Below are positions 93-21,868 of a stretch of DNA of 28,256 nucleotides, in pieces. The notes beneath the pieces were generated by a model that was not told the origin of the DNA, did no database searches, and saw only the letters and a list, made by a program, of their open reading frames with translations. The stretch spans positions 1 through 28,256 of IMG/VR virus record IMGVR_UViG_3300048136_000176; one strand, given 5' to 3'. The translations under genes were made by a program, and so were the position numbers. This DNA comes from a virus. Each line of letters starts with the position of its first letter. Position 1 is the first letter of the stretch.

Positions 93-419
93 ATGAGTTA
101 TGGTATCCAATTATACGGTCCAGATGGACAGACGGTCGTATTCTCAGACAGCATAAGAACCAGCAATATCCAAGTGAGAGAGTCTCGTCTCCTTGGACCA
201 GGACCTTACGCCTCAGAAGATTTCCCCTGTCCGGACGCAGACGATCCGGATAAAGTTATTATAACCTTTGTGCGAAAACCCACTTCAGATCGAATGGTGC
301 GAGTTTGGATAACACGACACTCAGGGTTTTTTAGAGTCAATCTATATGACCTACTGGAGAGACCTGCAGATACTGCGGTTCTTTTGACAATTGATATGAT
401 GGCAATAAGGATCGGATAA
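93..419 (+). CDS. Small fibre-associated structural protein, 108 aa, unknown function
   Basis: The ATG at 93 follows a GGGGGAA ribosome-binding site, and the stop TAA (417-419) shares its last A with the ATG of the next gene, so the two are translationally coupled. The N-terminus (MSYGIQLYGPDGQTVVFSDS) resembles the N-terminus of the following giant protein (MPYGLKIQGNANGDNFTIAD), which suggests a shared N-terminal domain and perhaps a shared docking site. The protein looks like a small beta-rich fold with no signal peptide, membrane segment or catalytic motif. I do not recognise a named family. From the coupling and the likeness I infer a virion protein that works with the 1520-aa fibre, perhaps as a truncated paralogue or adaptor. 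Confidence 0.7.
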   Translation: MSYGIQLYGPDGQTVVFSDSIRTSNIQVRESRLLGPGPYASEDFPCPDADDPDKVIITFVRKPTSDRMVRVWITRHSGFFRVNLYDLLERPADTAVLLTIDMMAIRIG

Positions 420-3400
420 TGCCTTATGGCCTAAAGATACAAGGAAATGCAAACGGTGATAATTTTACTATTGCCGACTCCTCACTCGATCTGATTAACT
501 ATCGAGTAACTCAGCATGATCGTGCTTCCTATGTTACCTTAGATTATCCCCTCGGTGATTTTGATTTTATATTTGTAAAATCTCCGACTGCTGTGGGTGG
601 AGGTAATTATACCTCACAAAACGTAGATAATATTTACGGTGACGTTACTGTCTACAGTCCAGAAATCTTTTTCCTAGAATCCTCTTTTTCAGATGCATTA
701 GAAAACATTATTCGATTCAAAGGCAGAGGATTTGCGCCTGGTGGATACCAAAACAATACCTACGTCACCGCAGACTGGAACGTTGATTTAGATTACTTTG
801 TAGTACGTCACGTCGATGGTATTCTTGATAATGCATCTAATTTAAACAATGACGAATATGGTCTCCAGATAAAAACATCAAGTGGAGCAATCGGATTTGA
901 TTCCAGAGCATTAACCTCAAATGAAGTTTTTCACATTGAAGAATACCTACCACCAAGTGATGATTGGACAGTATTTGGAGATCCAATAATATATCATAGT
1001 AATGGTGCTTATGTAAATTTAGAGTGGTCTTTAACATCTAATTCTTCTAATTTCGAAGGCAATCCTTCAACGGATTTATTCGGTTTAAGTTTAGGTACAA
1101 ATGCATCATACTATTACGATTCTGTTCTTAGAAATTATGGTAGGACTGGGTCTGAAATATATTCTAACTTCAGAAATCTAAATGCTCTCTTTGCGGCAAG
1201 GTTGGAAGCATCCTCTTCAGGATCAGGTCAACAAGATGAAAGTTCTTCTGGATCTTTACAGTTTTCCAATGTAACGTCTCTAACTGAGGGCACCGGACAA
1301 TCAATAAGTTTTCAGGCAACAACAGATGAAAGTGGTCCTTATCATGTAAAACTGTTTAGGGTTTCGGGATCAGACGGAGTTGCATTAAGAGACTTTGTAA
1401 GTTCATCGAGCACTTTTACAGGCACGAATCATACCGCAACCTTTTCATCTTATAATACGACCACCTCGTATAATATCACCAAAGACAACACGATATTGTA
1501 TACCAGACAATCTGTTGTCGATGCGGCTCAATCGTTCAACAGAGATTTTATCGGTAACTTCATCGTATATTATACTGGTGATTTTACTGGAAACTTTACT
1601 AGAACTAGTATCTACAATAGAAACAGAACTGGTTATATTTCTTATGTCGGAAACTACACAAGAACTTCTGCGTATGAAGGTAACTATAATCGAGAGTCAG
1701 TAAGAAACATCACACGCACAACGACTAGTAATGTGTCTTACACGGCCGGGTTGTCTTTCGAAGGTAACTATTCTCGATTCTATGCTAGAACTATCTATTA
1801 TAACTGGAATATTCTCAACCCCAGTGAAGAAGAGGGTAGGTTTGAACTTGTACTCCGTCCACAAACGTATACCGAAACCTACGAAAGAGACCGTGCATCT
1901 ACGTTTACGGAAATTTATACTAGAAATAGACCAACAACTTTATCAACATCTAAGACCTTTACTAGTACGTCTACCCGCAATCGTGCTCCAGACACAGCAA
2001 CATCTAAGACCTTTGCTGGCACGTATACACGGAATCGTTCGGTATACATTCCAACAGATAAGACGTATAGTAGAACGTCTATACGCACGAGATATTCAAC
2101 ATATAATAGAGATTCTACTAGAACTAGAATAACTTCCTACCAAAGATTTAGGCCTGGAATATTTAGTCGCACAGTCTATTTCCTTGGAAACTTTTTAGGT
2201 AATTTTACTGGGGATTTTGTCCCACAGGTCGATTATGCTCGAACTTCAAGTCGAGTGACCTCTACTAGGATAAGTGCATATTCACAAAATTTTGCAAGAA
2301 CTAGATATTCATCATACGAGGGCACCTATACTAAGACTCGACAATCTGCATATTCTCGATCTAGAGCCGTTAGTTCTACACGATATTTTATAGGAAATAA
2401 GGGAGTAACCTTCACAGGAAACTATAATAGGACCATTTATTATATTGGCAATACTGCTAGAACAAGAATAACTTATTATGCCGACATGGTAGACTTCACT
2501 CGTATAAGAACAAGTGCATACGAAGGAAATTATGCACGAGCATTTGTAGGAAACTATAATAGAACGTTTGTTGGTAACTACACAAAGGCATCTAATTTCT
2601 TTCGAACTTTCGTGGGAAACTTCACGGGAGGTAATTCATACGAAGGAAACTATAATAGAACAAGAACGTCAGCATATGAAAGAACTAGAACGGTCTCTGG
2701 CTCAGACCCTTGGGAACACTCGATCCAAAACGGTGTTGTTCAATATGCTTGGAGGATTGTAACTAATTTTAATTTTGGAGATAACGACCCCTTTAATCCT
2801 GGAGGTGGTGGAAGCAACACATACTCTATTGAATTGCGGTGGAATGGTGTATTGGTACATACGTCTGACTATGATACTTATAATGAGGCAATAGCAGAAG
2901 ATGGTCCTATAGCAGCCAATGGGAAATATTATTGGAGAGGTGTCCAAGTTGGATCTGCTACCGCATTCCACACAGATTATAAGATCGCCGAGACGACGAC
3001 ACTCAGCGCACCTAGTTCTACGCAAACTTTTATAGGGAACTATTCCAGAGATTTCACAGGTAATTATGATCGAATTAGAACAGTGGGTACGAGTTCTACT
3101 AGAGATAGATCGTCTGCTTATGCAGGTACTATTACGTACATTGGGAATCGTGTTTCAACTTATCTAGGAAATTATTCTAGAAACTATGCTGGAAATTATA
3201 CACGCAACTTCATTGGAAATGACACAAGAATTTCTGTTAGAGAAGTAAATGAACAGGGGACTATATTTTATGAACCAGTATACTACAGTCGCAGTTTTAT
3301 GGGGACCAATACTAGAACCCGCACTAAACAAAGTGGTAGAATAGTTTACAGGTATAGCACTTATACTAAAAGTCGAGCTTCAACATACACTGTAGGTTTT

Positions 3401-4981
3401 GAAGGTAACTTTAATCGTGATTTCATAGGGGAATATACTGGAGTTTATAGTAGGTCATTCATTGGAAATTACACAGGAGATTTCGATAGAACCCTATACT
3501 TTATAGGAGACTTCACTGGTAATTTTATTGGACCTAAACGGAGTCAAATTATAATGGAGGGTTACGTAGTAACCTATCCAGTTAATTATACACGCACTTC
3601 CAATAGAACATCGACTCGTACTCGACCTCAAGTCTTTGATTATGCGGGCACATATACAGGTGACTACACTGGCAATTTCCTTGGGAACTTTATAGGTAAC
3701 TATGCTGGAGACTTTATTGGTAATTTTTTGGGTGAGTACACAGGCACATATAGTCGAACAGTAACATACCTTGGTAATTATGAAGGTAATTACACAGGAA
3801 CATATAGTCGAACTTTATCGTATATTGGTAATTACTTGGGTAACTTTACAGGAACTTATTCTAGATCCTCATCTTACTTAGGTAACTATCAAGGGAATTA
3901 TGTAGGTAATGTTGTAGACTCATATAGCAGATACCCAATATCTTATTACACACGAATAAGTGCTAGAGATAATGTTAGGGTTAGTGTTTTCACTAGAATA
4001 CTAGAGTTCATTGGAAATTACACAGGTAATTACGAGGGTGCATATACTCGTGACTTTACGGATATTAGTAGTTATATAAGAACACCAAGTTACTTAGGTG
4101 ACTATGCAAACTTTGTGCCTTCAACACGAAACTCAACGGTCACCTCAACGAGAGATTTTACAAAAACTCGAGTGTCTTCATATTCCGATGGTGCAAAAAC
4201 GTATTATACGGGTGAATTTGTAGGTAATTATACCAGTACTAGTACCGTAACAACCGGAGATTCTGAGTTGGGGTGGCAAGGAGAAGTGTTTCTTGCACAA
4301 CTACGATCAGGTAATGATACATCTAGTGTTAATGCGCAACTGGGAAGTGAAGGTGTAGAAGTCCTTGCTGAGAAAGAATTTACCCTATACGATAATGATA
4401 GTGGCATATTTACCACAACAACCAACAGAATAGTTCATCCAGATGCTACAAATCATGAATTAAGTATTACTCATTTAACTGAAGGCACCGATACGAATGC
4501 GGTGCAAATGAGAGTTTATCGTGGATCTTTAATAATTTTATCAGATGTTTCAATAACAACTAACCTAAATACTTTCACAGTAAATGAAGTTCCACCGAAT
4601 GGATCATCATATACATACAATATTCAGGTGTTTAATGGAAGCAACTGGATCGCAGCAGGTAGTTACACGGTCACCAAGCCTAATCAAGTTGACCCTACTT
4701 CAACTGACGACAATACAGAACCACCACCAGAACAGACCGATACTAGTTCTGCTGGTAGCTGGTGGAGAGATGTAACCACATACACTCAAGAGATGGAAGA
4801 AATAGTTACTAACCAGATTAATTGGCAAGGAACAAATGTCTATAACACAGAGATTAATCAGGGTGATTATGTGACTCAGTCCTACACGACTGGTGGATAT
4901 ACCTACATAAAAGGAGATTACATTTCTTCTGATTATGGCACAAACTATCAGATAGATTATTATACTGTAACGAGAACCTAG
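419..4981 (+). CDS. Giant tetrapeptide-repeat tail fibre-like protein, 1520 aa
   Basis: The domains seen are: residues 1-260, a unique N-terminal region starting MPYGLKIQG; 262-280, a Ser/Gly/Gln-rich linker; about 281-345, a beta-sandwich-like segment with LTEGT; about 372-758, a first block of degenerate tetrapeptides such as FTGN, YTRT, YNRT and YEGN; 759-868, a non-repeat insert starting VSGSDPW; 871-1277, a second repeat block rich in FIGN, FLGN and YTGT; 1278-1520, a C-terminal region with a second LTEGT segment, a Pro/Thr/Asp-rich linker and a Tyr/Thr-rich end. There is no lysis, enzymatic or membrane signature. It is flanked by tail-fibre-assembly-like genes, so a host-contacting fibre is the best inference. 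Arg is mostly AGA or CGA here, unlike the CGT-rich giant at 5542. It has no late promoter in the window and must be read from upstream. I know no named family for the repeats. Confidence 0.82.
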   Translation: MPYGLKIQGNANGDNFTIADSSLDLINYRVTQHDRASYVTLDYPLGDFDFIFVKSPTAVGGGNYTSQNVDNIYGDVTVYSPEIFFLESSFSDALENIIRFKGRGFAPGGYQNNTYVTADWNVDLDYFVVRHVDGILDNASNLNNDEYGLQIKTSSGAIGFDSRALTSNEVFHIEEYLPPSDDWTVFGDPIIYHSNGAYVNLEWSLTSNSSNFEGNPSTDLFGLSLGTNASYYYDSVLRNYGRTGSEIYSNFRNLNALFAARLEASSSGSGQQDESSSGSLQFSNVTSLTEGTGQSISFQATTDESGPYHVKLFRVSGSDGVALRDFVSSSSTFTGTNHTATFSSYNTTTSYNITKDNTILYTRQSVVDAAQSFNRDFIGNFIVYYTGDFTGNFTRTSIYNRNRTGYISYVGNYTRTSAYEGNYNRESVRNITRTTTSNVSYTAGLSFEGNYSRFYARTIYYNWNILNPSEEEGRFELVLRPQTYTETYERDRASTFTEIYTRNRPTTLSTSKTFTSTSTRNRAPDTATSKTFAGTYTRNRSVYIPTDKTYSRTSIRTRYSTYNRDSTRTRITSYQRFRPGIFSRTVYFLGNFLGNFTGDFVPQVDYARTSSRVTSTRISAYSQNFARTRYSSYEGTYTKTRQSAYSRSRAVSSTRYFIGNKGVTFTGNYNRTIYYIGNTARTRITYYADMVDFTRIRTSAYEGNYARAFVGNYNRTFVGNYTKASNFFRTFVGNFTGGNSYEGNYNRTRTSAYERTRTVSGSDPWEHSIQNGVVQYAWRIVTNFNFGDNDPFNPGGGGSNTYSIELRWNGVLVHTSDYDTYNEAIAEDGPIAANGKYYWRGVQVGSATAFHTDYKIAETTTLSAPSSTQTFIGNYSRDFTGNYDRIRTVGTSSTRDRSSAYAGTITYIGNRVSTYLGNYSRNYAGNYTRNFIGNDTRISVREVNEQGTIFYEPVYYSRSFMGTNTRTRTKQSGRIVYRYSTYTKSRASTYTVGFEGNFNRDFIGEYTGVYSRSFIGNYTGDFDRTLYFIGDFTGNFIGPKRSQIIMEGYVVTYPVNYTRTSNRTSTRTRPQVFDYAGTYTGDYTGNFLGNFIGNYAGDFIGNFLGEYTGTYSRTVTYLGNYEGNYTGTYSRTLSYIGNYLGNFTGTYSRSSSYLGNYQGNYVGNVVDSYSRYPISYYTRISARDNVRVSVFTRILEFIGNYTGNYEGAYTRDFTDISSYIRTPSYLGDYANFVPSTRNSTVTSTRDFTKTRVSSYSDGAKTYYTGEFVGNYTSTSTVTTGDSELGWQGEVFLAQLRSGNDTSSVNAQLGSEGVEVLAEKEFTLYDNDSGIFTTTTNRIVHPDATNHELSITHLTEGTDTNAVQMRVYRGSLIILSDVSITTNLNTFTVNEVPPNGSSYTYNIQVFNGSNWIAAGSYTVTKPNQVDPTSTDDNTEPPPEQTDTSSAGSWWRDVTTYTQEMEEIVTNQINWQGTNVYNTEINQGDYVTQSYTTGGYTYIKGDYISSDYGTNYQIDYYTVTRT
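1532..2692 (+). repeat. Tetrapeptide (12-nt) repeat block 1 of the 1520-aa protein
   Basis: Residues about 372-758 consist of degenerate units of four residues: an aromatic or Arg/Ser at position 1, a small or beta-branched residue at 2, Gly/Arg/Ser/Thr at 3, and often Asn/Asp/Thr at 4. Examples are FIGN, FTGD, YTRT, RTSA and YEGN. Synonymous codons vary widely from unit to unit, so conservation is at the protein level and the expansion is old. The first half is less regular, with stretches such as SKTFTSTSTRNRA. Confidence 0.8.
2693..3028 (+). other. Non-repeat domain embedded in the 1520-aa repeat protein
   Basis: Residues 759-870 interrupt the tetrapeptides. The segment begins SGSDPW and contains a Gly-rich loop (NPGGGGSN), then YSIELRWNGVLVHTS, KYYWRGVQV, TDYKI and SAPS, after which FIGNYSRDF repeats resume. 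It has a related counterpart in the 1595-aa protein at 8167-8430. A small globular beta domain projecting from the shaft is my inference. Confidence 0.7.
3029..4250 (+). repeat. Tetrapeptide (12-nt) repeat block 2 of the 1520-aa protein
   Basis: Residues 871 to about 1277, roughly 100 tetrads. Units such as FLGN, FIGN, YAGD, YTGT and YSRT occur in long in-phase runs (3650-3900 is the most regular part). Occasional two-residue slips occur. Codons for the same residues differ between units, which again points to protein-level selection. Confidence 0.8.
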
Positions 4982-4985
4982 AAAA

Positions 4986-5465
4986 ATGAAATTATATTAC
5001 GTTGTATATGTTAACACACAGACGGGGAAGATAGAAAGAATCTCTCTCCCACAATTAAAATACGATGCTGCAGGGTTTACTCAAGACGGTTCTCAACGCA
5101 TTATTCATGTATATGAAGATTTATTACCAGACGGTTGTAAAGAAATGTCTTACTTCATGGATTACCATTGGTTCGATTCATCAAGCAATACCTTTAAATT
5201 CACAGGGTTACCACCCAACAAACATTCTCGATGGGACTTTGACTCTTTGACTTGGGTCTGGAACGATGATGATTTACATAGAGAAATACGTCTAATCAGA
5301 AACCAATTACTCAGTGCATGTGATTGGACCCAAGCACTCGATGCTCCCCTGTCTGAACAAGAATTGCAGTCTTGGCGAGACTACCGACAGCAATTAAGAG
5401 ATATCACAAGAAATCTAGATGGTGTTAGTTCTGCACAAGAAGTAAACTGGCCGCAAAAAAGTTAA
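4986..5465 (+). CDS. Tail fibre assembly (chaperone)-like protein, 159 aa
   Basis: The ATG lies four bases after the stop of the 1520-aa fibre gene. The N-terminal half (residues 1-90) is beta-rich and acidic with several aromatic residues. Residues 95-159 are a helical tail-assembly-chaperone-type region: EIRLIRNQLLSACDWTQALD, then WRDYRQQLRDIT, ending in NWPQKS. This 'RD.LL...DWTQ.(L)D ... W..YRQ.LRDI ... WP' layout is typical of phage tail assembly chaperones encoded next to fibre genes, which help fibres fold or trimerise. The C-terminus is nearly the same as that of the partial gene at 1-84, so the locus carries two paralogues. The partner fibre is probably an adjacent repeat giant; this is inferred from position. 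Confidence 0.78.
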   Translation: MKLYYVVYVNTQTGKIERISLPQLKYDAAGFTQDGSQRIIHVYEDLLPDGCKEMSYFMDYHWFDSSSNTFKFTGLPPNKHSRWDFDSLTWVWNDDDLHREIRLIRNQLLSACDWTQALDAPLSEQELQSWRDYRQQLRDITRNLDGVSSAQEVNWPQKS

Positions 5466-5472
5466 AAGTGAC

Positions 5473-5500
5473 GATCTGATTTCGTATAAATAATCAGGTC
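5473..5500 (+). promoter_or_regulatory. Hairpin enclosing a late promoter
   Basis: GATCTGATT (5473-5481) pairs with AATCAGGTC (5492-5500): nine pairs with one T-G wobble, leaving a 10-base loop that contains most of the TATAAATA octamer. A second, outer pairing of TTAAAAGT (5462-5469) with ACTTTTAA (5519-5526) ends beside the AGAGAG ribosome-binding site at 5529-5534. Both are read directly from the sequence; a role is inferred. Confidence 0.45.
5485..5492 (+). promoter_or_regulatory. T4-type late promoter (TATAAATA)
   Basis: Exact TATAAATA octamer in the short gap before the 1595-aa fibre gene. In T4 the sliding clamp and the late sigma factor gp55 use this single element, with transcription starting about six bases past its end, here near 5498. 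It would drive the second giant fibre. Confidence 0.85.
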
Positions 5501-5541
5501 ATTAACCACTAAACTTTAACTTTTAAAAGAGAGACGATATC

Positions 5542-8500
5542 GTGTCAGCATCTAGTATACCACTAAAAATCATTAATGATGGTGACCTACAGGAATTTCA
5601 ACCGGCACAGGAAGCATATCTTGCTGTTAAGGTTGGAGAAGCATTAGCAGAGGCCACTGCTAGTGATATCGGCAATATCAGTTTAACCGGAAGTGTAAAT
5701 ATTGGTTCTTTTGTAGATACTTATTACAACGAACCAGCAGGGACACACCCTGCATCTCAGATCACTGGTTCCACAACAACTACTGTCCTTAAACAAGTAG
5801 GTGGATCAGCAGATGAGTCCGGAGCAGATTTTGCCCGTCCAGTAGGATACTATGACGTGGGCCCTAACCCAGGCTTCTATGAAATGGACGACGGGGATTT
5901 AGACCTACTTACAGAACGTGTCATGAAAGACGTTGCGGGTCTTGAATATCAAGGTACCTTCCGTCTATCTCAAACATCTCCGGGATCAGATTGGAGTATC
6001 CATATTGAAAATGTATTTACCGATACTCATGGAGACGGCACTACTGTAAATTACCATATTTGGAAAAAGACGTCATTAAGTGCAGTTACTTATGATGTCG
6101 TTCGTCCAGTCGCAACTGTATATGACGGTTCTTCTGTAGACGGATTCAGAGAAATGACAGACGCACAGATCAAGTACACTCTTGGTCAACGTGCAAAAAC
6201 CCTACGTGCCACTGCTGGTGCCATTGGTTCGTATCAATTACGTTCTGGTACACAAGGTGTTCCTACATCTGCAGGTACTTGGTTAGTAAAGGGTTCAGCA
6301 ACAAACACACGTCGGTCGATCGTGGATCAGAGTTATACTCGTACACGTCCATCATCGTACCTAACAACTCGTGTTTCTGCTTATTCAAGAAATCGTGTTT
6401 CCTCATACACACGTAATAGTGTTAATACCTTTTCACGTACTTTTGTAGGTGATTACGTAGGAACGTACTCACGTGACTTTACAGGAAACTACACACGTGG
6501 ATTCGAGGGTAATTATTCTCGTACTCGCACTTCTGCATATTCAGGTGTTTATTCAAGAAATCGCATGTCAACTTACGCACGTACGCGTTTGACAGCATTT
6601 ACTGGATACTTTGCAGGAACATATAACCGTGCACGTGTATCAACATACACTCGCAACCGTGTAACAAACTTTACTGGTACATTCTCACGTAGTCGTGCGT
6701 CTTCGTATACTCGTGGTCGTGTATCATCTTACGCAGGCACATACTCACGCAACCGTGTTTCAGTCTATTCTGCGAACTACACTCGTATTCGTGTATCATC
6801 ATATACTGGTACGTATTCCGGAACTTACTCACGCAACCGTGTTTCAGCATACTCAGGCACATACTCACGCAATCGTATTTCAGCATATGCAGGTACCTAT
6901 ACTCGTACTCGTGTTTCTGCCTATTCTGATAATTACGTCCGAACTCGTATAACTAACTACACTCGTGATCGTGTCACTAACTTTGCTGGTGTCTATTCTC
7001 GTGCACGTGTTTCATCATATGCTCGTAATCGTGTCACTAACTTTGCAGGAAACTTTGTAGGTAACTACTCACGTGGTTTCGTTGGTGACTATGCCCGTAA
7101 CTTTGTAGGTAACTACTCACGTGGATTTGCTGGCAACTACGTCGGTAACTATGCTCGTGTATCAACACGTACATCTACTCGTACTCGTTACAGTGCTTAT
7201 GCTCGTACATCAACACGTACTCGTTACTCAGCATATGTTCGTGATCGTGTAACCAACTTTGCTGGCAACTTCGTGGGTAACTATGCTCGTGATTTCGTTG
7301 GTGACTTCGTAGGTAACTACAGTCGTGGTTTTGCTGGCAACTTTGCTGGTGACTTCATTGGTAACTATGCGACAACCTTTACTGGTGACTTCGTAGGTAA
7401 CTACAGCCGTGGTTTTGCTGGCAACTATACTGGTGACTTCATTGGTAACTACTCACGTGACCGTGTCACAAACTTTGCTGGTGATTTTGTTGGTAACTAC
7501 GCAACAACTTTCACAGGTGATTTTGTTGGTAACTACGCACGTGGTTTTGCTGGTAACTACGCAGGTGATTTCGTCGGTGAATATGCTCGTACATCAACAC
7601 GTACATCTACTCGTACACTAGATTACCAACGCACATCAACACGTACATCTACTCGTACACTAGCATATACTCGTACTTTATACTACGCAGGTGATTTCGT
7701 AGGTAACTATGCTCGTAACCGTGCCGCAAGTTATGTGGGCAACTATGCTCGTAACCGTGCCGCAAGTTATGTTGGTAACTATGCACGTACTCGCAATGCG
7801 TCGTACACTGGTAACTATACACGTCAGACGAACTTCCAACGTACTCGTGCTACAAACTACACAAGAACTCGTACAGCATCATATCTTGGTGACTACACAC
7901 GTCAGGTAAACTTCCAACGTACTCGTGCTACAGATTATGCCCGCAATCGTACGGCATCATATCTTGGTGACTACACACGTCAGGTAAACTACCAACGCAC
8001 TCGTCTTACAGATTATGCCCGCAATCGTACATCTGGATATGCTCGTAATTATGCACGTGACGTAAACTACACAAGAACTAGTGCTCGCACTAGTACTCGC
8101 ACTAGTACAAGAAACAGTGTAATTGGATATACTCGTACTGTTTCGTCAACTCGTACATCTGTTGGTAGTGCATCTGATCCAGGCTTCTCAGAAGTATTTG
8201 TCGGTAACTATTTCGGCACAACAACAGGTTGGGAAATCGATACTGAAGGTGGTGTCAATGTTCACTCGGTTTACCGAGATGGTGTCTTGATAGATATGTG
8301 GACAGGTAGTCTAGCGATCTCGAGAAGTATTGGTGGTTCGACGTACTATAGGAGCTCGACTTTAGTAGCAACTTATGGTTTCCGTCAAGTTTATAAACTA
8401 AGTAAAGCACCGGGTACTATTAGTACAAACTACACTGGTAACTTTACGTCAACTGCAACATATAATGCTAACTTTACTGGTGACTACGTAGGTAACTTTG

Positions 8501-10329
8501 CTGGTAACTTTACTGGTGATTATGTCGGTACTGTTAACTACTCACGTAACTTTGTAGGTGATTTTGTTGGTAACTACGTAGGTAACTTTGCTGGTGATTA
8601 TGTCGGTACTGCTAACTATCAACGTACCCGTGCAGCTGCATACGCTGGTAACTACGTAGGTAACTTTGCTGGTGATTATGTCGGTACTGTTAACTATCAA
8701 CGTACTCGTGGAGCAAGTTATGCAGGTGATTACGTAGGTAACTTTGTTGGTGATTATGTCGGTACTGTAGCATATACTCGTGCTCGTGCCGCATCATATG
8801 TGGGTAATTACTCACGTACTCGTGGAGCAACCTACACTGGTAACTATGCACGTACTCGAAATGCGTCGTACGAAGGTAACTATGCTCGTACTTCTACACG
8901 TACGTCAACTAATACTGGTTACTACACACGTGTCGGTTACTATGCTGGTAACTTCTTAGGTAACTACACACGTGTCGGTTACTATGCTGGTGATTACGTT
9001 GGTAACTATGCTCGTACAAGTACTCGTACTTCTACACGTACTCGTTATTCAGCATATGCACGAACACGTATCACTAACTATGTTGGTGACTTCACACGTA
9101 ACCGTGTAACTAACTTTGCTGGTAACTTCGTAGGTAACTACTCTCGTAACAGCACACGTGTTTCAACTCGTGTACGTTATTCTGCTTATGCTCGTACTCG
9201 TATCACTAACTACGTTGGTGACTTCACACGTAACAGCACACGCACTTCAACTAGAAATCGTTCTTCAGCATATGCTCGTACTCGTATCACTAACTACGTT
9301 GGTAATTTCACTAGAGATCGTGTAACTAACTTTGCTGGTAACTTCGTAGGCAATTACTCTCGTGCTTTCGCAGGTGATTACGTAGGCAACTACTCACGTG
9401 GTTTCGCAGGTGATTTTGCTGGTAACTATACTGGTGAATATACTCGTACTTCTACACGTACTCGATATAGTGCTTATGTAACAACTCGTGTTTCAGCATA
9501 TGTTCGTAACCGCTCATCTGCATACACACGTGATCGTGTAACTGACTTTGCTGGTGATTTCACTGGTAACTATGCACGTACATTTACAGGCAACTACTCT
9601 CGTAACTTCGCAGGCAACTTCATCGGTGATTTCGTTGGTGACTTTGTTGGTGATTACGTGGGTAACTACACTCGTGACTTCGGTGGAAACTATGTCGGTA
9701 ACTACACTCGTGCTTTCGTTGGTGAGTACACAGGTGCATATAACCGAACATTCGTCGGTGAATACACTGGTGCATACTCAGGAACTTACTCACGTCAGTT
9801 TGCTGGTGATTACGTAGGCAACTACTCACGTGGATTCGTTGGTGAGTACACTGGTGCATATAACCGCACGTTCGTAGGTAACTACGCACGATCGTTCTCT
9901 GGTCAGTACACACGTGAATTTGCTGGTGACTTCGTAGGTAACTACGCAAGAACATTTGCTGGTGAGTACACTGGTACGTATGCACGTGATTTCGTCGGCA
10001 ACTTCGTGGGTGACTATGCACGTGGATTCGTCGGTGAGTACACTGGTACTTACTCTCGTGATTTCGTAGGTAACTACTCTCGTATCCGTGTATCTGCTTA
10101 TGCTCGTATCCGTACATCGGCATATAGTGGTCCATACACACGTAACCGTGTGTCTACATACGTAGGTGATTTCACTGGTAACTATACACGTGGATTCGAA
10201 GGTAACTATAACCGTGATTTCGTGGGTAACTACTCAAGATCGTTCCTAGGTAACTACGTAGGTGCGACAATTAGTGATACGTTAACGCATGTCACTGATA
10301 CCTACACACTATATGTAAGGGTTGCATAA
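5542..10329 (+). CDS. Giant tetrapeptide-repeat tail fibre-like protein, 1595 aa
   Basis: It starts at GTG 5542, eight bases after AGAGAG. Residues 1-263 form a globular N-terminal domain with MTDAQIKYTLGQR and SYQLRSGTQG; from memory, a similar domain opens virion structural proteins of T4-like cyanophages. Residues 264-875 and 964-1573 are two blocks of about 150 tetrapeptides each (FVGN, YSRG, FAGD, RVSA, STRT), interrupted at 876-963 by a non-repeat domain starting SASDPG. The last about 22 residues leave the repeat (DTLTHVTDTYTLYVRVA). The repeat blocks are almost free of Lys, Cys, His and Trp, and Arg far outnumbers Asp plus Glu, so the shaft is strongly basic and Tyr/Gly/Asn-rich. Arg is nearly always CGT. 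A late promoter precedes it and a terminator follows it. I infer a long fibre or spike; no enzymatic motif is seen. Confidence 0.85.
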   Translation: MSASSIPLKIINDGDLQEFQPAQEAYLAVKVGEALAEATASDIGNISLTGSVNIGSFVDTYYNEPAGTHPASQITGSTTTTVLKQVGGSADESGADFARPVGYYDVGPNPGFYEMDDGDLDLLTERVMKDVAGLEYQGTFRLSQTSPGSDWSIHIENVFTDTHGDGTTVNYHIWKKTSLSAVTYDVVRPVATVYDGSSVDGFREMTDAQIKYTLGQRAKTLRATAGAIGSYQLRSGTQGVPTSAGTWLVKGSATNTRRSIVDQSYTRTRPSSYLTTRVSAYSRNRVSSYTRNSVNTFSRTFVGDYVGTYSRDFTGNYTRGFEGNYSRTRTSAYSGVYSRNRMSTYARTRLTAFTGYFAGTYNRARVSTYTRNRVTNFTGTFSRSRASSYTRGRVSSYAGTYSRNRVSVYSANYTRIRVSSYTGTYSGTYSRNRVSAYSGTYSRNRISAYAGTYTRTRVSAYSDNYVRTRITNYTRDRVTNFAGVYSRARVSSYARNRVTNFAGNFVGNYSRGFVGDYARNFVGNYSRGFAGNYVGNYARVSTRTSTRTRYSAYARTSTRTRYSAYVRDRVTNFAGNFVGNYARDFVGDFVGNYSRGFAGNFAGDFIGNYATTFTGDFVGNYSRGFAGNYTGDFIGNYSRDRVTNFAGDFVGNYATTFTGDFVGNYARGFAGNYAGDFVGEYARTSTRTSTRTLDYQRTSTRTSTRTLAYTRTLYYAGDFVGNYARNRAASYVGNYARNRAASYVGNYARTRNASYTGNYTRQTNFQRTRATNYTRTRTASYLGDYTRQVNFQRTRATDYARNRTASYLGDYTRQVNYQRTRLTDYARNRTSGYARNYARDVNYTRTSARTSTRTSTRNSVIGYTRTVSSTRTSVGSASDPGFSEVFVGNYFGTTTGWEIDTEGGVNVHSVYRDGVLIDMWTGSLAISRSIGGSTYYRSSTLVATYGFRQVYKLSKAPGTISTNYTGNFTSTATYNANFTGDYVGNFAGNFTGDYVGTVNYSRNFVGDFVGNYVGNFAGDYVGTANYQRTRAAAYAGNYVGNFAGDYVGTVNYQRTRGASYAGDYVGNFVGDYVGTVAYTRARAASYVGNYSRTRGATYTGNYARTRNASYEGNYARTSTRTSTNTGYYTRVGYYAGNFLGNYTRVGYYAGDYVGNYARTSTRTSTRTRYSAYARTRITNYVGDFTRNRVTNFAGNFVGNYSRNSTRVSTRVRYSAYARTRITNYVGDFTRNSTRTSTRNRSSAYARTRITNYVGNFTRDRVTNFAGNFVGNYSRAFAGDYVGNYSRGFAGDFAGNYTGEYTRTSTRTRYSAYVTTRVSAYVRNRSSAYTRDRVTDFAGDFTGNYARTFTGNYSRNFAGNFIGDFVGDFVGDYVGNYTRDFGGNYVGNYTRAFVGEYTGAYNRTFVGEYTGAYSGTYSRQFAGDYVGNYSRGFVGEYTGAYNRTFVGNYARSFSGQYTREFAGDFVGNYARTFAGEYTGTYARDFVGNFVGDYARGFVGEYTGTYSRDFVGNYSRIRVSAYARIRTSAYSGPYTRNRVSTYVGDFTGNYTRGFEGNYNRDFVGNYSRSFLGNYVGATISDTLTHVTDTYTLYVRVA
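6331..8166 (+). repeat. Tetrapeptide (12-nt) repeat block 1 of the 1595-aa protein
   Basis: Residues 264-875. From about 6334 the sequence divides cleanly into four-residue units: YTRT RPSS YLTT RVSA, YSRN RVSS, then FVGN YSRG and so on. Types cluster: R-x-S-x with Y-x-R-x units early, F-x-G-N/D units from about 7040, and STRT runs at 7156-7190 and 7585-7680. Several long stretches are nearly identical in DNA, for example the 36-base tandem at 7705-7776, which indicates recent duplication or gene conversion. Confidence 0.9.
7834..8067 (+). repeat. Three tandem 78-nt (26-residue) modules
   Basis: Units start at 7834, 7912 and 7990. Each begins (F/Y)QRTR and ends with a dipeptide VN just before the next unit. 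Twenty-six residues is six tetrads plus two, so each module holds one two-residue slip. Units one and two differ at few residues; the third is more diverged at its end. Confidence 0.85.
8167..8430 (+). other. Non-repeat domain embedded in the 1595-aa repeat protein
   Basis: Residues 876-963 leave the tetrapeptide pattern: SASDPG at the entry, a GWEIDTEGG segment, VHSVYRDGVLIDMW, STYYRSSTLV, QVYKLSKAPG, then back to repeats at NYTGNF. It matches the insert at 2693-3028 in order of motifs: S-x-SDP, S-(I/V)-x4-(N/D)GVL(V/I), YY-(W)R, YK(I/L), AP(S/G). Its codon use also shifts, with AGT, AGC and AGG appearing in a CGT-rich gene. Confidence 0.7.
8431..10260 (+). repeat. Tetrapeptide (12-nt) repeat block 2 of the 1595-aa protein
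   Basis: Residues 964-1573. Dominated by FVGN, FAGD, YVGN, YSRG, YTGT and RVTN units. A triplicated segment with AYARTRITNYVG recurs at about 9052, 9184 and 9271, and a 27-base identical stretch recurs at 8923-8949 and 8965-8991. DNA-level similarity is high throughout, unlike the 1520-aa protein. Confidence 0.9.
8575..8808 (+). repeat. Second array of three 78-nt (26-residue) modules
   Basis: Units start at 8575, 8653 and 8731, each reading YVGNF(A/V)GDYVGT first. If the unit is rotated to start at YQRTR, it has the same length and the same terminal VN-type dipeptide as the array at 7834-8067, so the two arrays are versions of one higher-order module on either side of the embedded domain. 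Confidence 0.82.
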
Positions 10330-10877: not shown

Positions 10878-11615
10878 ATGGAAAAGAGTAAAGGTTTTGT
10901 TATCGTTGCGTCGAAGAAACGCAATTTTTATCTGTATGCAATTAATCTTGCAGAGTCGATCCGAGACTTTTATGAACCGGAAGAGGAATGTAAGATCTGT
11001 CTAGTCACTGAAGAGCAATTTTTAGATGACCGTGGCAGAGATGTAGCAGATGATATTATCTTTTGTGACGACCACTACCGTGCCAAATTGTGGGGCATGG
11101 CAAAATCTCCATATGATCTAACGATGTACATCGACGCAGACATGGAATGCGAACACGAAGACATCGTTAAAGTTTGGGATGAAATGAAAGACCATGACAT
11201 GGTTTTTTCTGCGTTAACAGATGATCGTGATTACATCTACGCAGAACGTGACTTCGATACCCCAGAGGGTGTTTCTAAGTTCACACTATGTGGTGGTGTT
11301 TGTCTGTATGATATGACCAAACCAATTGTACGTGAATTCATGCAAGACTGGTGGGAGTTGACATATAGACAGATGAATGATACATGGTGGCCAGAGGGAT
11401 ATGCTGATAGTCTCAAGTCTTGGGATCAGTTCTCACTTTGGTGGTTAGTAGAGAAAGAGGAAAAGTACAAAGACCTTAAGGTCGGAATCTTTGATGACGA
11501 TTTAAGGTGGAACTACTATAACGCACTTAATTGGGCAATAACAAAACCAGACACAGGGCCAGTGATCTTACGACACTTCTCTGCTGGTCTTAATAAGGAT
11601 AAACCAATCGTATGA
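10878..11615 (+). CDS. GT-A-fold glycosyltransferase-like protein (GT8-like), 245 aa
   Basis: Residues 5-30 (KGFVIVASKKRNFYLYAINL) fit the first strand and helix of a GT-A Rossmann-like fold. The key motif is YIDADM, with D86 and D88 forming the D-x-D that binds Mn2+ and the sugar nucleotide. Further family-like marks are the GG at 139-140, the DQ in SWDQFSLW (183-184) and a late His in ILRHFSAGLNKDKPI (H233), which mirrors the C-terminal H-F-x-G-x-x-KPW of family 8 transferases. There is no signal peptide or membrane segment, so it acts in the cytoplasm. Donor and acceptor are unknown. Its stop overlaps the next start (ATGA), coupling it to the oxygenase-like gene. Acceptor candidates are the fibre proteins or host surface precursors; this is inferred from position only. 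Confidence 0.75.
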   Translation: MEKSKGFVIVASKKRNFYLYAINLAESIRDFYEPEEECKICLVTEEQFLDDRGRDVADDIIFCDDHYRAKLWGMAKSPYDLTMYIDADMECEHEDIVKVWDEMKDHDMVFSALTDDRDYIYAERDFDTPEGVSKFTLCGGVCLYDMTKPIVREFMQDWWELTYRQMNDTWWPEGYADSLKSWDQFSLWWLVEKEEKYKDLKVGIFDDDLRWNYYNALNWAITKPDTGPVILRHFSAGLNKDKPIV

Positions 11616-12319
11616 CACAGGTAAACGACAAATATCTGAAGCACGTGGACGTCAAAAACCCAGAGCTGCTTGAGATTCTAAACCAGTACGCAAAGTTGCA
11701 TACCATTGCGGGATTCGAAGAGAACGTGCACCTAAATTCTGCGCAACACAAACGTCAACGTCCATACTACGTTGGTGAGAAGTATATGCAGGAGATTGTC
11801 GATCAGGGCACTAAGCACGAAGGTTTCCCAGATGAGATGGTAGGTTACAATTTAAAACTATCAGAAAAATCTCACATGATTTTTGAGCAAAATGCAGATC
11901 CAGTATTCAAACGTGACTTCACACATATATTGCGTGATCTCAATGCTAAAATGATGAACTTTTTGTCGGTTAAGCATAATGCACTTGCGGCAATCTACCC
12001 ACCGGGTGGATTTATTTCATGGCATAATAATGCTAATGCTCCAGGCTTCAACCTAATCTTCTCTTATACAGAGAATGGTACAGGTTGGTTCGACTACATT
12101 CACCCAGAAACTAAAGAGGTGATTCGTTGTCAAGACAAGCCTGGTCAGTGGAGTTGTAAAGCTGCATACTTTGGACCATATAACGAACCAGAAAATCTAC
12201 TGTACCACGCTGCATCTTCTGAAGATGAGTGGAGAATTACAGTTTCTTATGTGTTCGATTGGTCAGAAGCATCCGCAGACTTCCGTGAGATGGTTCTAGA
12301 AGACATCGCTTCAGAATAA
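11612..12319 (+). CDS. 2OG-Fe(II) oxygenase-like protein, 235 aa
   Basis: Residues 128-215 carry the double-stranded beta-helix marks of 2-oxoglutarate/Fe(II) dioxygenases: YPPGGFISWHNNANAPG with the proximal His138, GTGWFDYI in the middle, YHAASS with the distal His199, and RIT with Arg208, the expected 2-oxoglutarate-binding Arg about nine residues on. The usual H-x-D/E is H138-N-N140 here, so the acidic metal ligand seems replaced by Asn. The N-terminal 120 residues are helical and unassigned. Such enzymes hydroxylate protein side chains, sugars or nucleobases; the substrate is unknown. It is coupled to the glycosyltransferase-like gene by an ATGA overlap. The lineage may be a divergent phage oxygenase or an inactive relative. 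Confidence 0.75.
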   Translation: MTQVNDKYLKHVDVKNPELLEILNQYAKLHTIAGFEENVHLNSAQHKRQRPYYVGEKYMQEIVDQGTKHEGFPDEMVGYNLKLSEKSHMIFEQNADPVFKRDFTHILRDLNAKMMNFLSVKHNALAAIYPPGGFISWHNNANAPGFNLIFSYTENGTGWFDYIHPETKEVIRCQDKPGQWSCKAAYFGPYNEPENLLYHAASSEDEWRITVSYVFDWSEASADFREMVLEDIASE

Positions 12320-14109: not shown

Positions 14110-17100
14110 ATGGCATTTAGGCAGATTAAATCCCCTGCATTAGCGGACAAGGCGGTAATCAATACCAAACTTGACGAAAGTGCGGTACAGGGACAATCAA
14201 CCCTTCAAGGTATGGTAGATCCTTCAAACTGCTTTACTCTTCTTTACGATGTCGGCTCTGACTCATTAAAGAAGATTGGTGCAGACCAATTCTTTGCTTC
14301 GTTCAGTACGTCTGACCTAGCAGAAGGTTCTAACCTATACTATACAGCTGATCGTGCTAATGCTGATGTCGCTGCTCAAATAGACGCAGACGTTCTAGTA
14401 GAAACAAACCGTGCAAAAGCAGCGGAAACACTACTACAGCAAAACATTGACGCAGAAGCATCTACTCGTGCAGCTGCAGACATTGCTCTACAGGCAAACA
14501 TTACTGCTGAAGAGTCTCGTGCTACTGCTCGTGAAAATGCGATCGAAGCTGCATACCAAGCTGCAGATACTACATTATCGAATCGTATCGATAATATTTT
14601 AAACAATACAGACCCAGGTGTACTTGACTCGTTCGCAGAAATCATTGCGGCATTTGAAGCTGCAGATGATGTACTATCCGCATCAATCATTGCGAATGCT
14701 ACTGCTATCACAAACGAAGTCACACGTGCAACTACTCGTGAAACAACTATCGATGATCGTGTAACTACTGAAATTGCACGTGCACAGTCGGCAGAATCTT
14801 CACTTGCTGGTCTAATCGGTGCAGAAGAAACCGCACGTATTGCTGGTGACAACGCACTGTCCGCACGACTAGATGACGAAGAAGATGCATCTGCGGATCT
14901 ACAAGCACAGATCACTGCAGAAGTTTCTCGTGCTACTGGTGTAGAGGGTTCTCTACAGTCGCAGATCACTGCAGAAGTTTCTCGTGCTACTGGTGCAGAA
15001 GCTGCTAACGCACAAAACCTAACAGACGAAATTAATGCTCGTGCATCTGCTGATACACAAGTTCGTACTGATCTAGGTGCAGATATTGTTGCGGCAGAAG
15101 CAGCTGCTAAAGCACATGCTGAAGCACAAGACGCACTAATGATTGGTGATGTTACTGTTGACGGTACTGCAACTAACACAATCACTGATCGCATTGCAAC
15201 TGCAAAAGCAGAAGCAATCACTGAATCAAGCAACTCAGTTGCAATCGAGAACGCTGCACGTATTGCAGGTGACTCAGATCTAAATGCTCGTGTTGATCAA
15301 GAGATCATTGATCGTCTTGCTGGTGACGCTGCTAACTCAGCAGAAGTTGCTACTGAGAAGGCACGTGCGGAAGGTGTTGAATCAAGTCTACAATCACAAG
15401 TTGACTTCATCACATCAAACACTGATCCAGCTGCTCTAGATTCACTAACAGAAATCGTTAGTGCTTATCAAGCATCTGACTCAGACATGTCTGCGTTGAT
15501 TTCGTCTAACACTACTGCGATTTCAAACGAAGCAAACACACGTTCGTCTGCAGATACTACTCTACAGAATAACATCAACACAGAAGCATCAACTCGTGCA
15601 ACTGCTGATACAAATCTGCAGTCTCAGATTGACCAACTAGAAGTTGATCTACAAGTCGAGAAAGACGATGTTCTTGCTGAAGCAAAAGCATACACTGATC
15701 AAGAAGCAGACGCACACCAGGCTGTTGCAATCGCACACGCTGATGCGCAAGACGCTGCCCTAATCGGTGACGCAACTGTAAACGGTACTTCTGGTAATAC
15801 AGTTACTGATCGTATCCAAACTGTTAAGACTCAAGCATTCAACTACACAGACTCGGAAGTTACGACTGAACGTACTCGTGCTATGAATGCAGAATCTGCA
15901 CTATCTCTACGTACAACAGTACTAGAAGGTGAGATGGATGACGTTGAGGCACTAGCTGCTCAAAACGAAATCGATCTACGTGCAGAAGAAGTTGCTCGTG
16001 CAACTAAAGATTCGGACCTACAAGGTCAGATCGACGCACTAAACTCTAACACTACAATCGACGTTGATGATCTACAAGCACAGATCACTGCGGAAGTTAA
16101 CCGTGCGACTACAGCAGAAGGTGTTAACGCAGACTCAGTTGTCACAGAACGTAACCGTGCAGTAGGTGTTGAGCAAGGTCTACAGACTCAAATCGACACT
16201 AACATTTCAGATATCTCCACAGAACGTGGTCGAATCACTGTTGAAGTAGCACGTGCTCAATCTGCAGAATCTGCACTAAGCAGTCGTTTGGATGATGTAG
16301 AAGCAGACTTCAACGAAGCAGATTCCGATCTACAAGCATCGATTCTTGCAGAAGTTGTTCGTGCATCTGGTGTTGAAGCAGGTCTACGTACAGACGTAGA
16401 TAGTGTTCAGGCACAAGTTACTGCAAACGATTCAGACATTCTTGCTCTACAAAATCGTGCTGATAACGAAGTTGGTGACCTACAGTCACAAATCGACGCA
16501 GAAGTTTCTCGTGCGACTACAGCAGAAGGTGTTCTACAGAGCAATATCGATGCAGAAGTCACTCGTGCTACTGGTATCGAAGCTGGTCTACGTACCGACG
16601 TTGATGCAAACCAAGCACAAATCACTGCAAACGATTCTGATATCCTAGCACTACAAAACCTACAGTCATCTGATCACAACGATCTACAATCTCAGATCAC
16701 TGCGGAAGTTAACCGTGCGACTGGCATTGAAACAGGTATTCGTACAGACCTAACAACTCTTGAAGGTCGTGTTGACTTTATCGTTTCTAACGAAGATGGT
16801 GCGGCACTAGATTCACTAACAGAAATCGTTAGTGCATTCCAAGATGCAGATTCAGATCTACAAGGTGTTATCGATGCTAACGGTGGTCGTCTAACTACTC
16901 TAGAATCAGAAATGGACGCAGTCGAACTACGTGCTACTGATCTAGAAGCGAAGGACGTTGCACACACTAACCGTCTAAATGGTCTAGACTCTGATCAGAT
17001 TGTACAGAACGGTCGTTTGGCAACTAACGAAAGTCACATATCTGCACTACAGACTAAGCAAGGTTCTGCTACTCTAGCAACTGTTGCTACTAATGTCTCA

Positions 17101-19657: not shown

Positions 19658-21868
19658 ATGTCTACAAATAAGAAATTTAGAATACAGAACGGAGTCGATA
19701 TCCACGGTGGTGGACTTTCTATCGATGACGTTGTTGTAATCGGTGCAGACGGTAAAGTTGTTCCTGCTGCTATTGCCGATGCTGTTGCAGGTCTGACTTC
19801 TTCTGACATCGCAGATCTACAGGCACAAGTAAGTGCAATTTTGGGCACTTCTCCAGAGACTCTGGACACCCTACAAGAAATCGTTGCGGCATTTGAAGGT
19901 GCGGATAGCACCCTAACAGGTTCTGTTGCTCAGAACGCTGCGGATATCGCAACAATCAACACTACTCTAACGAACGGTGTTGCAACACCAACAGACGTTG
20001 CTGGTCTACAAAGTCAAGTAACTTCGAACGACACAGACATCGCAGCTAACGCTGCGGCAATCGCTGCTACAAACGCACGTACATCTGGTATCAGCACATC
20101 TTCAGGTTCATCTAACATTCAGATGACTGCTGAAGTTGATATGGGTACTAACGCAATTACTAACATGTCCGACCCAAGTTCTGCACAAGATGCGGCAACT
20201 AAGGCATATGTTGATGCGGCATCAACTTCTTCAAGTAGTGATCTATCTACAGAAACTGCGGCACGTATCGCTGGTGATGCAACTACTGCGGCCGATGCGG
20301 CTGCGGATGCGACTTCTAAAGCAGATGCGGCAGAAGCAGCGGCAGTGGCAACTGCTTCAGCAGATGCGACATCAAAGGCAAATGCGGCACAGTCAGCGGC
20401 AGAAGCAACTGCATCTGCAGATGCTACTTCTAAAGCAGATGCGGCAGAAGCAAGTGCTAAGGCACATGCAGACTCTGGTGATGCAACTGTACAGGCAGCC
20501 GTTGACGTAGTAAGTGGTCGTGTTGACGCAATCCTAAACGGTTCTGGTGAATCACTAGACACAATCGTTGAGATTGTTGCGGCATTCGAGGATGCGGATT
20601 CAGATCTACAAACTCTAATCAGTTCTAATGCGTCTGCGGTATCTACAGAGACAGCACGTGCGCAAGCAGTTGAATCTGGACTACAGTCAAGCATTGACTC
20701 TCTAACATCATCTACAGGTGGTGACGTGAGTAGTCTACAGAGTCAGATCGATGATGAAGAAGCTGCACGTATTGCAGGTGATTCCTCTCTACAGTCTCAG
20801 TTAAACTCAGAGATCTCTCGTGCGACTTCTGCAGAAGCAGTTAATGCGGCAAACATTGCCTCAGAAATCACTGCTCGTAGTAATGCAGATGCGGCAATCG
20901 AAGCAGACGTTGTTGCTCTACAGAATCAGGTTGGTACCATCTTAGGTGGTGCGCCAGGTACTCTAGACACATTCGTCGAGATCATCAACGCATTTGAAGG
21001 TGCAGATTCAGACCTACAGTCTGTTATCACTAGCAACTCTACACGTCTAACGACTGCAGAAAACAACATTACTGCTCTTGAAGCAGACTTGACTGCAGAA
21101 GAGAACGCACGTGCAGGGGGTGATTCAGCACTACAGGCACAGATCACTTCTAACGATGCAGATATCCTAGCAAATGCGTCTGCTATCTCAGCAGAAGAGA
21201 CTCGTGCGACAGGTGTAGAGTCTTCTTTACAGGCACAGATCACTTCTAACGATGCAGATATATCAGCACTACAAGGTCGTTCTGGTACTATCGAAGGTAA
21301 GGATGCCGATCAGGACGTTGCGATTGCGGCAAATGCGTCTGCTATCTCAGCAGAGGTTGCCCGTGCAACTGCGGCAGAAGGTGTTATCGCAAGTGATCTA
21401 GCAGATGAAGTATCTCGTGCGACTTCTGCAGAAGCGGCACTTCAGTCTTCAATTGACTTTGTCAAGCAGAATACTGATCCTGCAGCACTAGACTCACTAA
21501 CAGAAATCGTTGCGGCATTCCAAGCAGCTGATGGTTCGATCACAAGTGTTGTTAACTCTAACACTACTCGCATCTCTTCACTGGAAGGTTCTGTGACAGG
21601 AATCGAAGCATGGAACACTGACAACGTATCTGAAGGTTCAACTAACCTATACTTCACAGATGCACGTGCTAAGGCATGTTTGACAGGTGGTCTATGTATC
21701 ACTTACAACTCAACAACTGGTGAAATCAAAGTTGATGAGGCAGAAGCAGAGTCTTCACTACGTGTTGCCGAGTCTGTTGCTTCAGATGACGCAGACAAGT
21801 TGGATGGTCAGCAAGGTTCTTACTACCGTATCAACATCTACAATGTTGCTGGCACTTTAGTCAACTAA
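19658..21868 (+). CDS. Coiled-coil fibre protein, 736 aa, at the wac (fibritin) position
   Basis: The ATG follows AAGG at 19646-19649. Residues 1-40 (KKFRIQNGVDIHGGGLSIDD) form an N-terminal attachment domain. Residues 45-640 are Ala/Ser/Asp-rich coiled coil with four modules of the type LDTLQEIVAAFEGADS, shared with the 1825-aa fibre. Residues about 150-190 hold MGTNAITNMSDPSSAQDAAT, a common fibre motif. Residues about 217-273 are three 19-residue Ala-rich repeats. The C-terminus has NLYFTDARAKA, ITYNSTTGEIKVDEAE and DDADKLDGQQGSYY, typical of fibre tips. It lies immediately before gp13, where T4 has wac, itself a segmented coiled coil. I infer either a whisker-like neck fibre or a second tail fibre. 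The tip is short and the final NVAGTLVN is not recognised. Confidence 0.83.
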   Translation: MSTNKKFRIQNGVDIHGGGLSIDDVVVIGADGKVVPAAIADAVAGLTSSDIADLQAQVSAILGTSPETLDTLQEIVAAFEGADSTLTGSVAQNAADIATINTTLTNGVATPTDVAGLQSQVTSNDTDIAANAAAIAATNARTSGISTSSGSSNIQMTAEVDMGTNAITNMSDPSSAQDAATKAYVDAASTSSSSDLSTETAARIAGDATTAADAAADATSKADAAEAAAVATASADATSKANAAQSAAEATASADATSKADAAEASAKAHADSGDATVQAAVDVVSGRVDAILNGSGESLDTIVEIVAAFEDADSDLQTLISSNASAVSTETARAQAVESGLQSSIDSLTSSTGGDVSSLQSQIDDEEAARIAGDSSLQSQLNSEISRATSAEAVNAANIASEITARSNADAAIEADVVALQNQVGTILGGAPGTLDTFVEIINAFEGADSDLQSVITSNSTRLTTAENNITALEADLTAEENARAGGDSALQAQITSNDADILANASAISAEETRATGVESSLQAQITSNDADISALQGRSGTIEGKDADQDVAIAANASAISAEVARATAAEGVIASDLADEVSRATSAEAALQSSIDFVKQNTDPAALDSLTEIVAAFQAADGSITSVVNSNTTRISSLEGSVTGIEAWNTDNVSEGSTNLYFTDARAKACLTGGLCITYNSTTGEIKVDEAEAESSLRVAESVASDDADKLDGQQGSYYRINIYNVAGTLVN
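20306..20476 (+). repeat. Three tandem 57-nt (19-residue) Ala-rich repeats
   Basis: Units start at 20306, 20363 and 20420, each beginning DATSKA(D/N)AA. They encode an Ala-rich helical segment of the 736-aa fibre. Similar DNA but not identical copies suggests tandem duplication followed by drift. Confidence 0.8.

Follow-up and report, generated by a model that had tools for sequence, protein, structure and literature searches.

The 1595-aa protein encoded in the 28,256-base IMG/VR record IMGVR_UViG_3300048136_000176 (hereafter the window, meaning the whole stretch analysed) is very probably (at roughly 0.83) a giant tail-fibre or side-fibre subunit, whose single chain would run out and back as one long antiparallel beta ribbon with a variable tip at its distal end. 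This reading is built on features computed directly from the sequences, namely two arms of equal length, a mirrored register between them, a pair code, twinned indels, a variable tip, purifying selection and a location in a tail module. With it, sequence would suffice to predict the fold of an unannotated family of giant phage proteins, an unusually long beta ribbon would have a pairing code that can be read, and exchangeable tips would be identified in T4-like phages, most of whose host-binding proteins are unknown. A further question, an evolutionary one, is how distant parts of a single gene, two in number, come to vary in length jointly.

Reading frames, parts and repeat unit

Two giant open reading frames lie in the window, at 419-4981 (1520 aa, labelled P0001 in the comparisons) and 5542-10329 (1595 aa, P0002, with GTG as start codon). 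An initial annotation had given these frames, their coordinates and their tetrapeptide repeats correctly, and the residues it quoted map to window positions 1532 and 10260. Residues 264-1573 of the 1595-aa protein had been described as one array; they are indeed built of tetrads, but the array is not continuous, since residues 874-963 form a domain without repeats, flanked on each side by an arm of the same length. That annotation described neither this central domain, nor the symmetry of the arms, nor the conserved domains at the ends. The parts of the protein are as follows:

5542..6333, + strand: N-terminal base domain, residues 1-264 (64 IMG/VR loci, 48-100% identity)
6334..8160, + strand: arm 1 (putatively outward), residues 265-873, 609 aa of tetrads and a few hexads (HMM segmentation)
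8161..8430, + strand: central domain, the putative distal tip, residues 874-963, 90 aa (AF2 model and hypervariability)
8431..10263, + strand: arm 2 (putatively returning), residues 964-1574, 611 aa (as long as arm 1 and linked to it by the pair code)
10264..10329, + strand: C-terminal strand (..TYTLYVRVA) and stop, predicted to dock on the N-terminal domain (AF2 model of the homologue L021; conserved motif)

The arms comprise 1220 residues in about 300 units, carry a net charge of +105 and contain no Lys, Cys or His, in agreement with the earlier count of units and with the description of the array as basic and nearly free of Lys and Cys. Aromatic residues in the protein recur with a probability of ~0.64-0.67 at lags of 4, 8 and 12, compared with 0.004-0.03 at odd lags. 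The tetrad learned by a hidden Markov model has Y/F/R/S at position a, T/A/V/S at b, G/R/S/T at c and N/T/D/A at d. The period of four is strong, but some units are hexads (abcbcd) instead of tetrads; the underlying constant is therefore an alternation of two residues, and in arm 1 Y/F are distributed 103:4 and N/D 2:73 over the two parities. The arms are under strong purifying selection, with dN/dS values of 0.07-0.19 for arm 1 in four homologous pairs, so the 1595-aa ORF is not a chance frame.

Neither giant protein matched a Pfam family up to E=0.1, and searches of the tetrapeptide arrays for a described repeat family returned no match in Pfam, PHROGs, NCBIfam or the PDB, which upholds the earlier statement that the unit belongs to no named repeat family. 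Nor did any curated model of the catalogued solenoid repeats (pentapeptide, hexapeptide and others) match either giant. The N-terminal base domain had no match in Pfam, PHROGs or NCBIfam, and none by Foldseek at E<=0.001 with the L021 model. The literature searched gave nothing on phage C48C1 (below) or on such a tetrad repeat, and the pairing code was likewise absent from the papers and databases searched.

Relatives with arms of equal length

A single named phage, Phage C48C1 (Kyanoviridae), has a clear homologue. The 64 IMG/VR loci found with the N-terminal domain rose to more than 100 with wider queries, while the patterns used on GTDB contigs found none encoding a relative. Full-length proteins of the first set span 850-3347 aa, with a contig-end fragment of 3527 aa; a tandem pair of such giant genes occurs in many genomes, and an ending like TYTLYVR is common to nearly all complete relatives found.

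With a five-state hidden Markov model (a, b, c, d and background), a base, two arms on either side of a central domain, and a C-terminus were delimited in 33 non-redundant proteins. The arms range from 217 to 1055 residues, and the two arms of a protein are almost perfectly correlated in length (r=0.993), differing by 11 residues on average; if the central domain were placed at random, the difference would be 622. Arm 1 and arm 2 measure 609 and 611 residues in P0002, 543 and 543 in L016, 677 and 678 in L015, 469 and 470 in L019, and 649 and 649 in L067. The apparent exceptions, L058, L062 and C48C1 (P0003), are due to folded inserts in arm 2, and equality in these three is obtained with the inserts left out (239+379 against 628 in L058, 405+375 against 783 in L062, and 1055 against 1030 in C48C1).

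Several further records were noted. Three proteins of 2041-2506 aa (L188:11257, L191:4974 and L201:3251) have a different N-terminal region of ~670 residues and a similar two-arm plan, with arms of 733 and 733 residues in L188. At L177:8998 and L177:11408 the gene is split into two ORFs (815 and 368 aa), either because this copy is interrupted or through an error in sequencing. MH319720 (L202), an unannotated marine virus record from a single cell, matches the repeat over a short stretch (E=4e-4). A match in Enterococcus phage Riverwalk was rejected as low-complexity similarity; it lies on the strand opposite the annotated genes, where no feature is found.

Mirrored register and pair code

When conditioned on tetrad phase, residue classes at mirrored positions of the two arms share 0.216 bits at offset 0 and 0.189 bits at offset -2. 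This holds in the antiparallel frame only, as parallel offsets are all flat (0.012-0.017 bits), and the antiparallel signal is present in every fifth of the arm. Mirror pairs are near-deterministic: Tyr with Tyr, Phe with Arg, Arg with Gly or Ser, and Thr with Gly. Arg-Arg pairs are avoided, with 8 observed where 322 would be expected. The putative direct register places YxR opposite Y/G or Y/S, FxG opposite R/R, RxS opposite F/R (363 units, 56.4 expected) and RxT opposite F/G (209 units, 25.6 expected).

The code was first learned on one family with related members; in each test it was learned on 20-29 proteins, with close relatives of the tested protein removed from training. For P0002, with nine similar proteins left out of training, 13 of 15 arm windows chose the register i+j=1839 out of 572. 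Comparable fractions fell at the register predicted from the base in L016 (12/13), L017 (13/15), L015 (14/16) and L038 (17/24), and in another member (10/11). Among 51 ORFs found later, most of them divergent, the same tetrad code reappears in 27, and 195 of 472 arm windows lie exactly at the base-anchored register where 1.7 are expected; all 10 of 10 do so in L161, L170 and L178. In some of these divergent ORFs, for example L172, L190, L194, L195 and L199, the register is absent from the expected place, in L199 despite equal arms. The ungapped mirror test failed for the C48C1 protein (z=0.3), where the register appears in blocks only.

Couplings obtained by pseudo-likelihood fall at mirrored offsets of 0/+2 on the a/c face and +2/+4 on the b/d face, which is what one twisted antiparallel ladder would give. 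The two coupled registers were initially taken for two different neighbouring strands, an assignment since dropped, as a single twisted ladder explains the offsets equally well.

The flat parallel offsets bear on a very improbable alternative, an intertwined parallel triple beta-helix like that of T4 gp5 (VxGx), a fold that the VTGN repeats of cyanophage S-RIM2 may share. T4 gp5 and S-RIM2 resemble the present family in that their structural proteins carry Gly-containing beta repeats of four or eight residues. By tblastn the repeat weakly matches those of S-RIM2, and the VTGN/LTGN repeats of S-RIM2 (L002:3351-9089) in turn match the T4 gp5 helix weakly in the PDB (E ~0.005-0.02). However, the link runs only through S-RIM2: P0002 itself, when compared with the VxGxxxxx octads and parallel chains of the gp5 type, has no such PDB match. 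In the gp5 helix three chains run in parallel, so no antiparallel register across arms would be expected, and equal arms are not known there.

Twinned indels and checks at the DNA level

Close pairs were compared for indels. Of 105 in arm 1, 52 are matched in arm 2 by one that is equal in size and sign and lies no more than 8 residues from the mirrored position, against a null of 0.3. Because many pairs share ancestry, the number of independent events is below 105, at ~53 distinct indels of which 20 are mostly twinned. In L053 and L055, for instance, both arms carry indels of 16, 2, -2, 4 and -4. About half of the arm-1 indels have no twin. As expected for strands, if that is what the arms are, 96% of indels are of even length (275 of 6634 are odd). 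In the near-identical pair L045 and L047, a 24-residue gap in arm 2 has no twin in arm 1; this could be a collapse of the repeat in short-read assembly or a real exception.

There is next to no chance that the mirror relation is a DNA-level artefact, such as an inverted duplication of one arm. The arms do have 190 direct 12-mers in common, and thus exchange units or descend from the same units. Yet the number of 12-mers shared with the reverse complement of arm 2 is 0, as is the number shared with its plain reverse, which refutes such an origin for P0002, and the relation between the arms is one of complementarity between residue classes, not of identity.

Proposed fold

In an AF2 model the central domain of P0002 contains a confidently predicted beta domain (pLDDT ~80-90), and the arms on either side of it are unfolded; in the monomer the arms have pLDDT values of ~25-35. 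For the homologue L021, residues 1-261 are mostly at pLDDT 70-95, the following 605 residues (262-866) are unfolded at ~25, and the last strand (870-877) is modelled at ~92. We read this strand as docked on the N-terminal domain, so that both ends of the chain would meet at the base. Foldseek searches with the tip model and the L021 model gave no match at E<=0.001.

The proposed path is thus that the chain would leave the base domain (1-264) as an outward strand of ~609 residues, form a small variable domain (874-963) at the far end, the tip, and return as a strand of ~611 residues, the last strand docking back on the base domain. Positions a and c of the tetrad would form one face of the ribbon and b and d the other, with Tyr opposite Tyr, Phe opposite Arg, and Arg on c opposite Gly or Ser across the ribbon, so that the sequence of one arm would largely dictate that of the other. 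If the T4 gp37 needle and similar tail fibres are a guide, each fibre probably contains two or three packed hairpins, three making the putative trimer. The T4 needle is ~150 A long (PMC3004832) and has 128 residues, tip included (PMC6957217). These dimensions correspond to roughly 2.3-3 A per arm residue; at ~2.3-3.3 A per residue the shaft of the 1595-aa protein would measure roughly 140-200 nm.

The initial annotation had envisaged a shaft, either a beta-solenoid or cross-beta material with aromatic/Gly and Arg ladders, or else a sticky low-complexity brush. Its shaft-like character and ladders are retained here, probably as a fibre. The solenoid and the brush are unsupported, because neither predicts equal arms, a register mirrored over the whole array or twinned indels, all three of which are seen. 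A solenoid, in which a single chain would coil so that each turn takes up 12 or 16 residues (three or four tetrads), is highly improbable even though the period of four is strict and lag 12 is the highest in C48C1: the pooled lags 8, 12, 24, 28 and 44 all score high and form no clean series of 12 or 16, and the DNA repeats have periods of 8, 12, 14, 16, 18, 20, 26, 28 and 40 aa. The low complexity of the arms and their low AF2 scores would suit a disordered Tyr/Arg brush with no defined fold; such a brush, however, requires neither a register, nor a ban on Arg-Arg pairs, nor indels of even length, and we consider it quite implausible.

There is perhaps an even chance that the out-and-back ribbon is a fibre architecture of its own kind, in which distant halves of one chain, each hundreds of residues long, zip together by a near-deterministic code that twinned indels preserve in evolution, length changes are two-sided and tips are swapped as cassettes.

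Gene neighbourhood and tip variability

The two giant genes flank one encoding a fibre chaperone:

4986..5465, + strand: tail fibre assembly chaperone gene (PF16778, E=4.1e-15; phrog_4912 tail fiber assembly, E=4.5e-15)

Downstream of the giants and of several fibre-module genes lie genes for a T4-type head-tail adaptor (Ad2), head closure (Hc2), a tail sheath stabilizer, the small and large terminases and the sheath, in the same order as in C48C1, which places the giants among the tail-fibre genes of a genome of T4-like type. The corresponding place in pelagimyophages is the host recognition cluster (PMC7029224). The tip is the most variable part of the protein: L010 and L012 have N-terminal domains that are 99% identical and central domains that are 27% identical (0.27). 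P0002 and L054 have a tip in common (67%) on N-terminal domains that are 66% identical. Given the variable tip, the adjoining chaperone, the location in a host recognition cluster and the purifying selection, we take the 1595-aa protein for a predicted host-binding fibre, presumably carried on the virion, whose exchangeable tip would bind the host receptor. The same ribbon might instead serve another role, as a whisker on the head or neck or as an adhesive outside the virion; the lack of a Foldseek match for the N-terminal domain leaves room for this, but the chaperone, the location and the tip variability all speak against this, and we regard it as unlikely.

Other genes of the window deserve mention. 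Proteins of 1825 aa (14110-19587) and 736 aa (19658-21868) are rich in short, coiled-coil-like Ala/Glu/Asp/Arg repeats, match no Pfam family and are likely further fibre or tail proteins. Between fibre genes, window 10878-12319 encodes a 245-aa protein with a weak match to glycosyltransferase family 2 (E=0.02) and a 235-aa protein without a match, which to us reads like a 2-oxoglutarate-dependent oxygenase; the order of this pair is similar in C48C1.

The 1520-aa protein

Judged by its sequence, the 1520-aa protein probably forms another fibre built on this plan, in irregular form. Tetrads are present over residues 372-1277, as had been noted, but this array is less regular than its neighbour and has several interruptions:

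419..1531, + strand: N-terminal region (from the translation; homologues start alike, with MSYGFR.. or MSYGLK..)
1532..2773, + strand: arm 1, ~residues 372-785, interrupted (HMM segments 373-433, 532-671 and 693-759; approximate limits)
2774..3028, + strand: central domain, a putative tip, ~residues 786-870 (non-repeat block between HMM segments)
3029..4249, + strand: arm 2, ~residues 871-1277 (HMM segments 871-933 and 986-1221)
4250..4981, + strand: C-terminal region (from the translation)

Its homologues have tips of 101-112 aa. Two of these upstream homologues have arm, tip and arm lengths of 338, 112 and 338 (L067) and 236, 109 and 239 (L028), with mirrored registers at 1552/1577 and 1360/1385, respectively. 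In P0001 itself the mirrored register gives a weak signal, and a gapped mirror alignment beats shuffles along an ambiguous path. Upstream, at 93-419, lies a 108-aa ORF whose start (MSYGIQLYG) resembles that of the 1520-aa protein (MPYGLKIQG), a possible remnant or small paralogue.

Comparison with known systems

In topology the nearest known system is T4 gp37, whose chain passes through a base domain, out to a receptor-binding tip and back to the base. Its D10 collar consists of residues 811-881 and 1010-1026 and its needle of residues 882-1009, in which G921 packs on F970 of another subunit (PMC6957217); the needle is six-stranded and antiparallel, and the same is likely in lambda Stf (PMC7291167). 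An out-and-back antiparallel plan with a head at the turn is likewise indicated here, the comparison being between that protein and our sequence statistics and AF2 C-terminal strand, not between structures. A neighbouring fibre chaperone gene, a further trait of gp37-type needles, is also found here, and gp37 ends in AFNYIVRLA where the giant family ends in TYTLYVRVA. In contrast, the arms measure ~50 residues in gp37 and ~610 here, and the tetrad repeat and pairing code are particular to the giants. The HxH iron motifs of gp37, with many HSH and HTH in residues 882-1009, have no counterpart among the 1220 arm residues, and a search for a gp37-like collar or homology found none in Pfam, PHROGs or NCBIfam, and no PDB sequence or Foldseek match. 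Since the His motifs, collar and homology fail, the protein may be said to work like gp37, not to be a gp37.

Short repeats in variable copy number have been reported in mycobacteriophage Tweety gp54 and Bordetella phage bbp36 (PMC2884959). The Tweety units start with Ala-Ala, occur in up to 48 copies, have no assigned function and are presumed non-essential, and arm symmetry is not reported for them.

The direct homologue is CDS0201 of Phage C48C1 (OQ984149, 3347 aa, annotated as hypothetical), which has the same gene order, an N-terminal domain of 66% identity and arms of 1030 (arm 1) and 1055 (arm 2) repeat residues. It differs in having several folded inserts in arm 2, so that its registers occur in blocks at 3593, 2981 and 2666. 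The inserts of this gene (L001:12486-22529) are in arm 2 only, and by eye some look like the tip domains of other members, as if the return strand bore extra heads.
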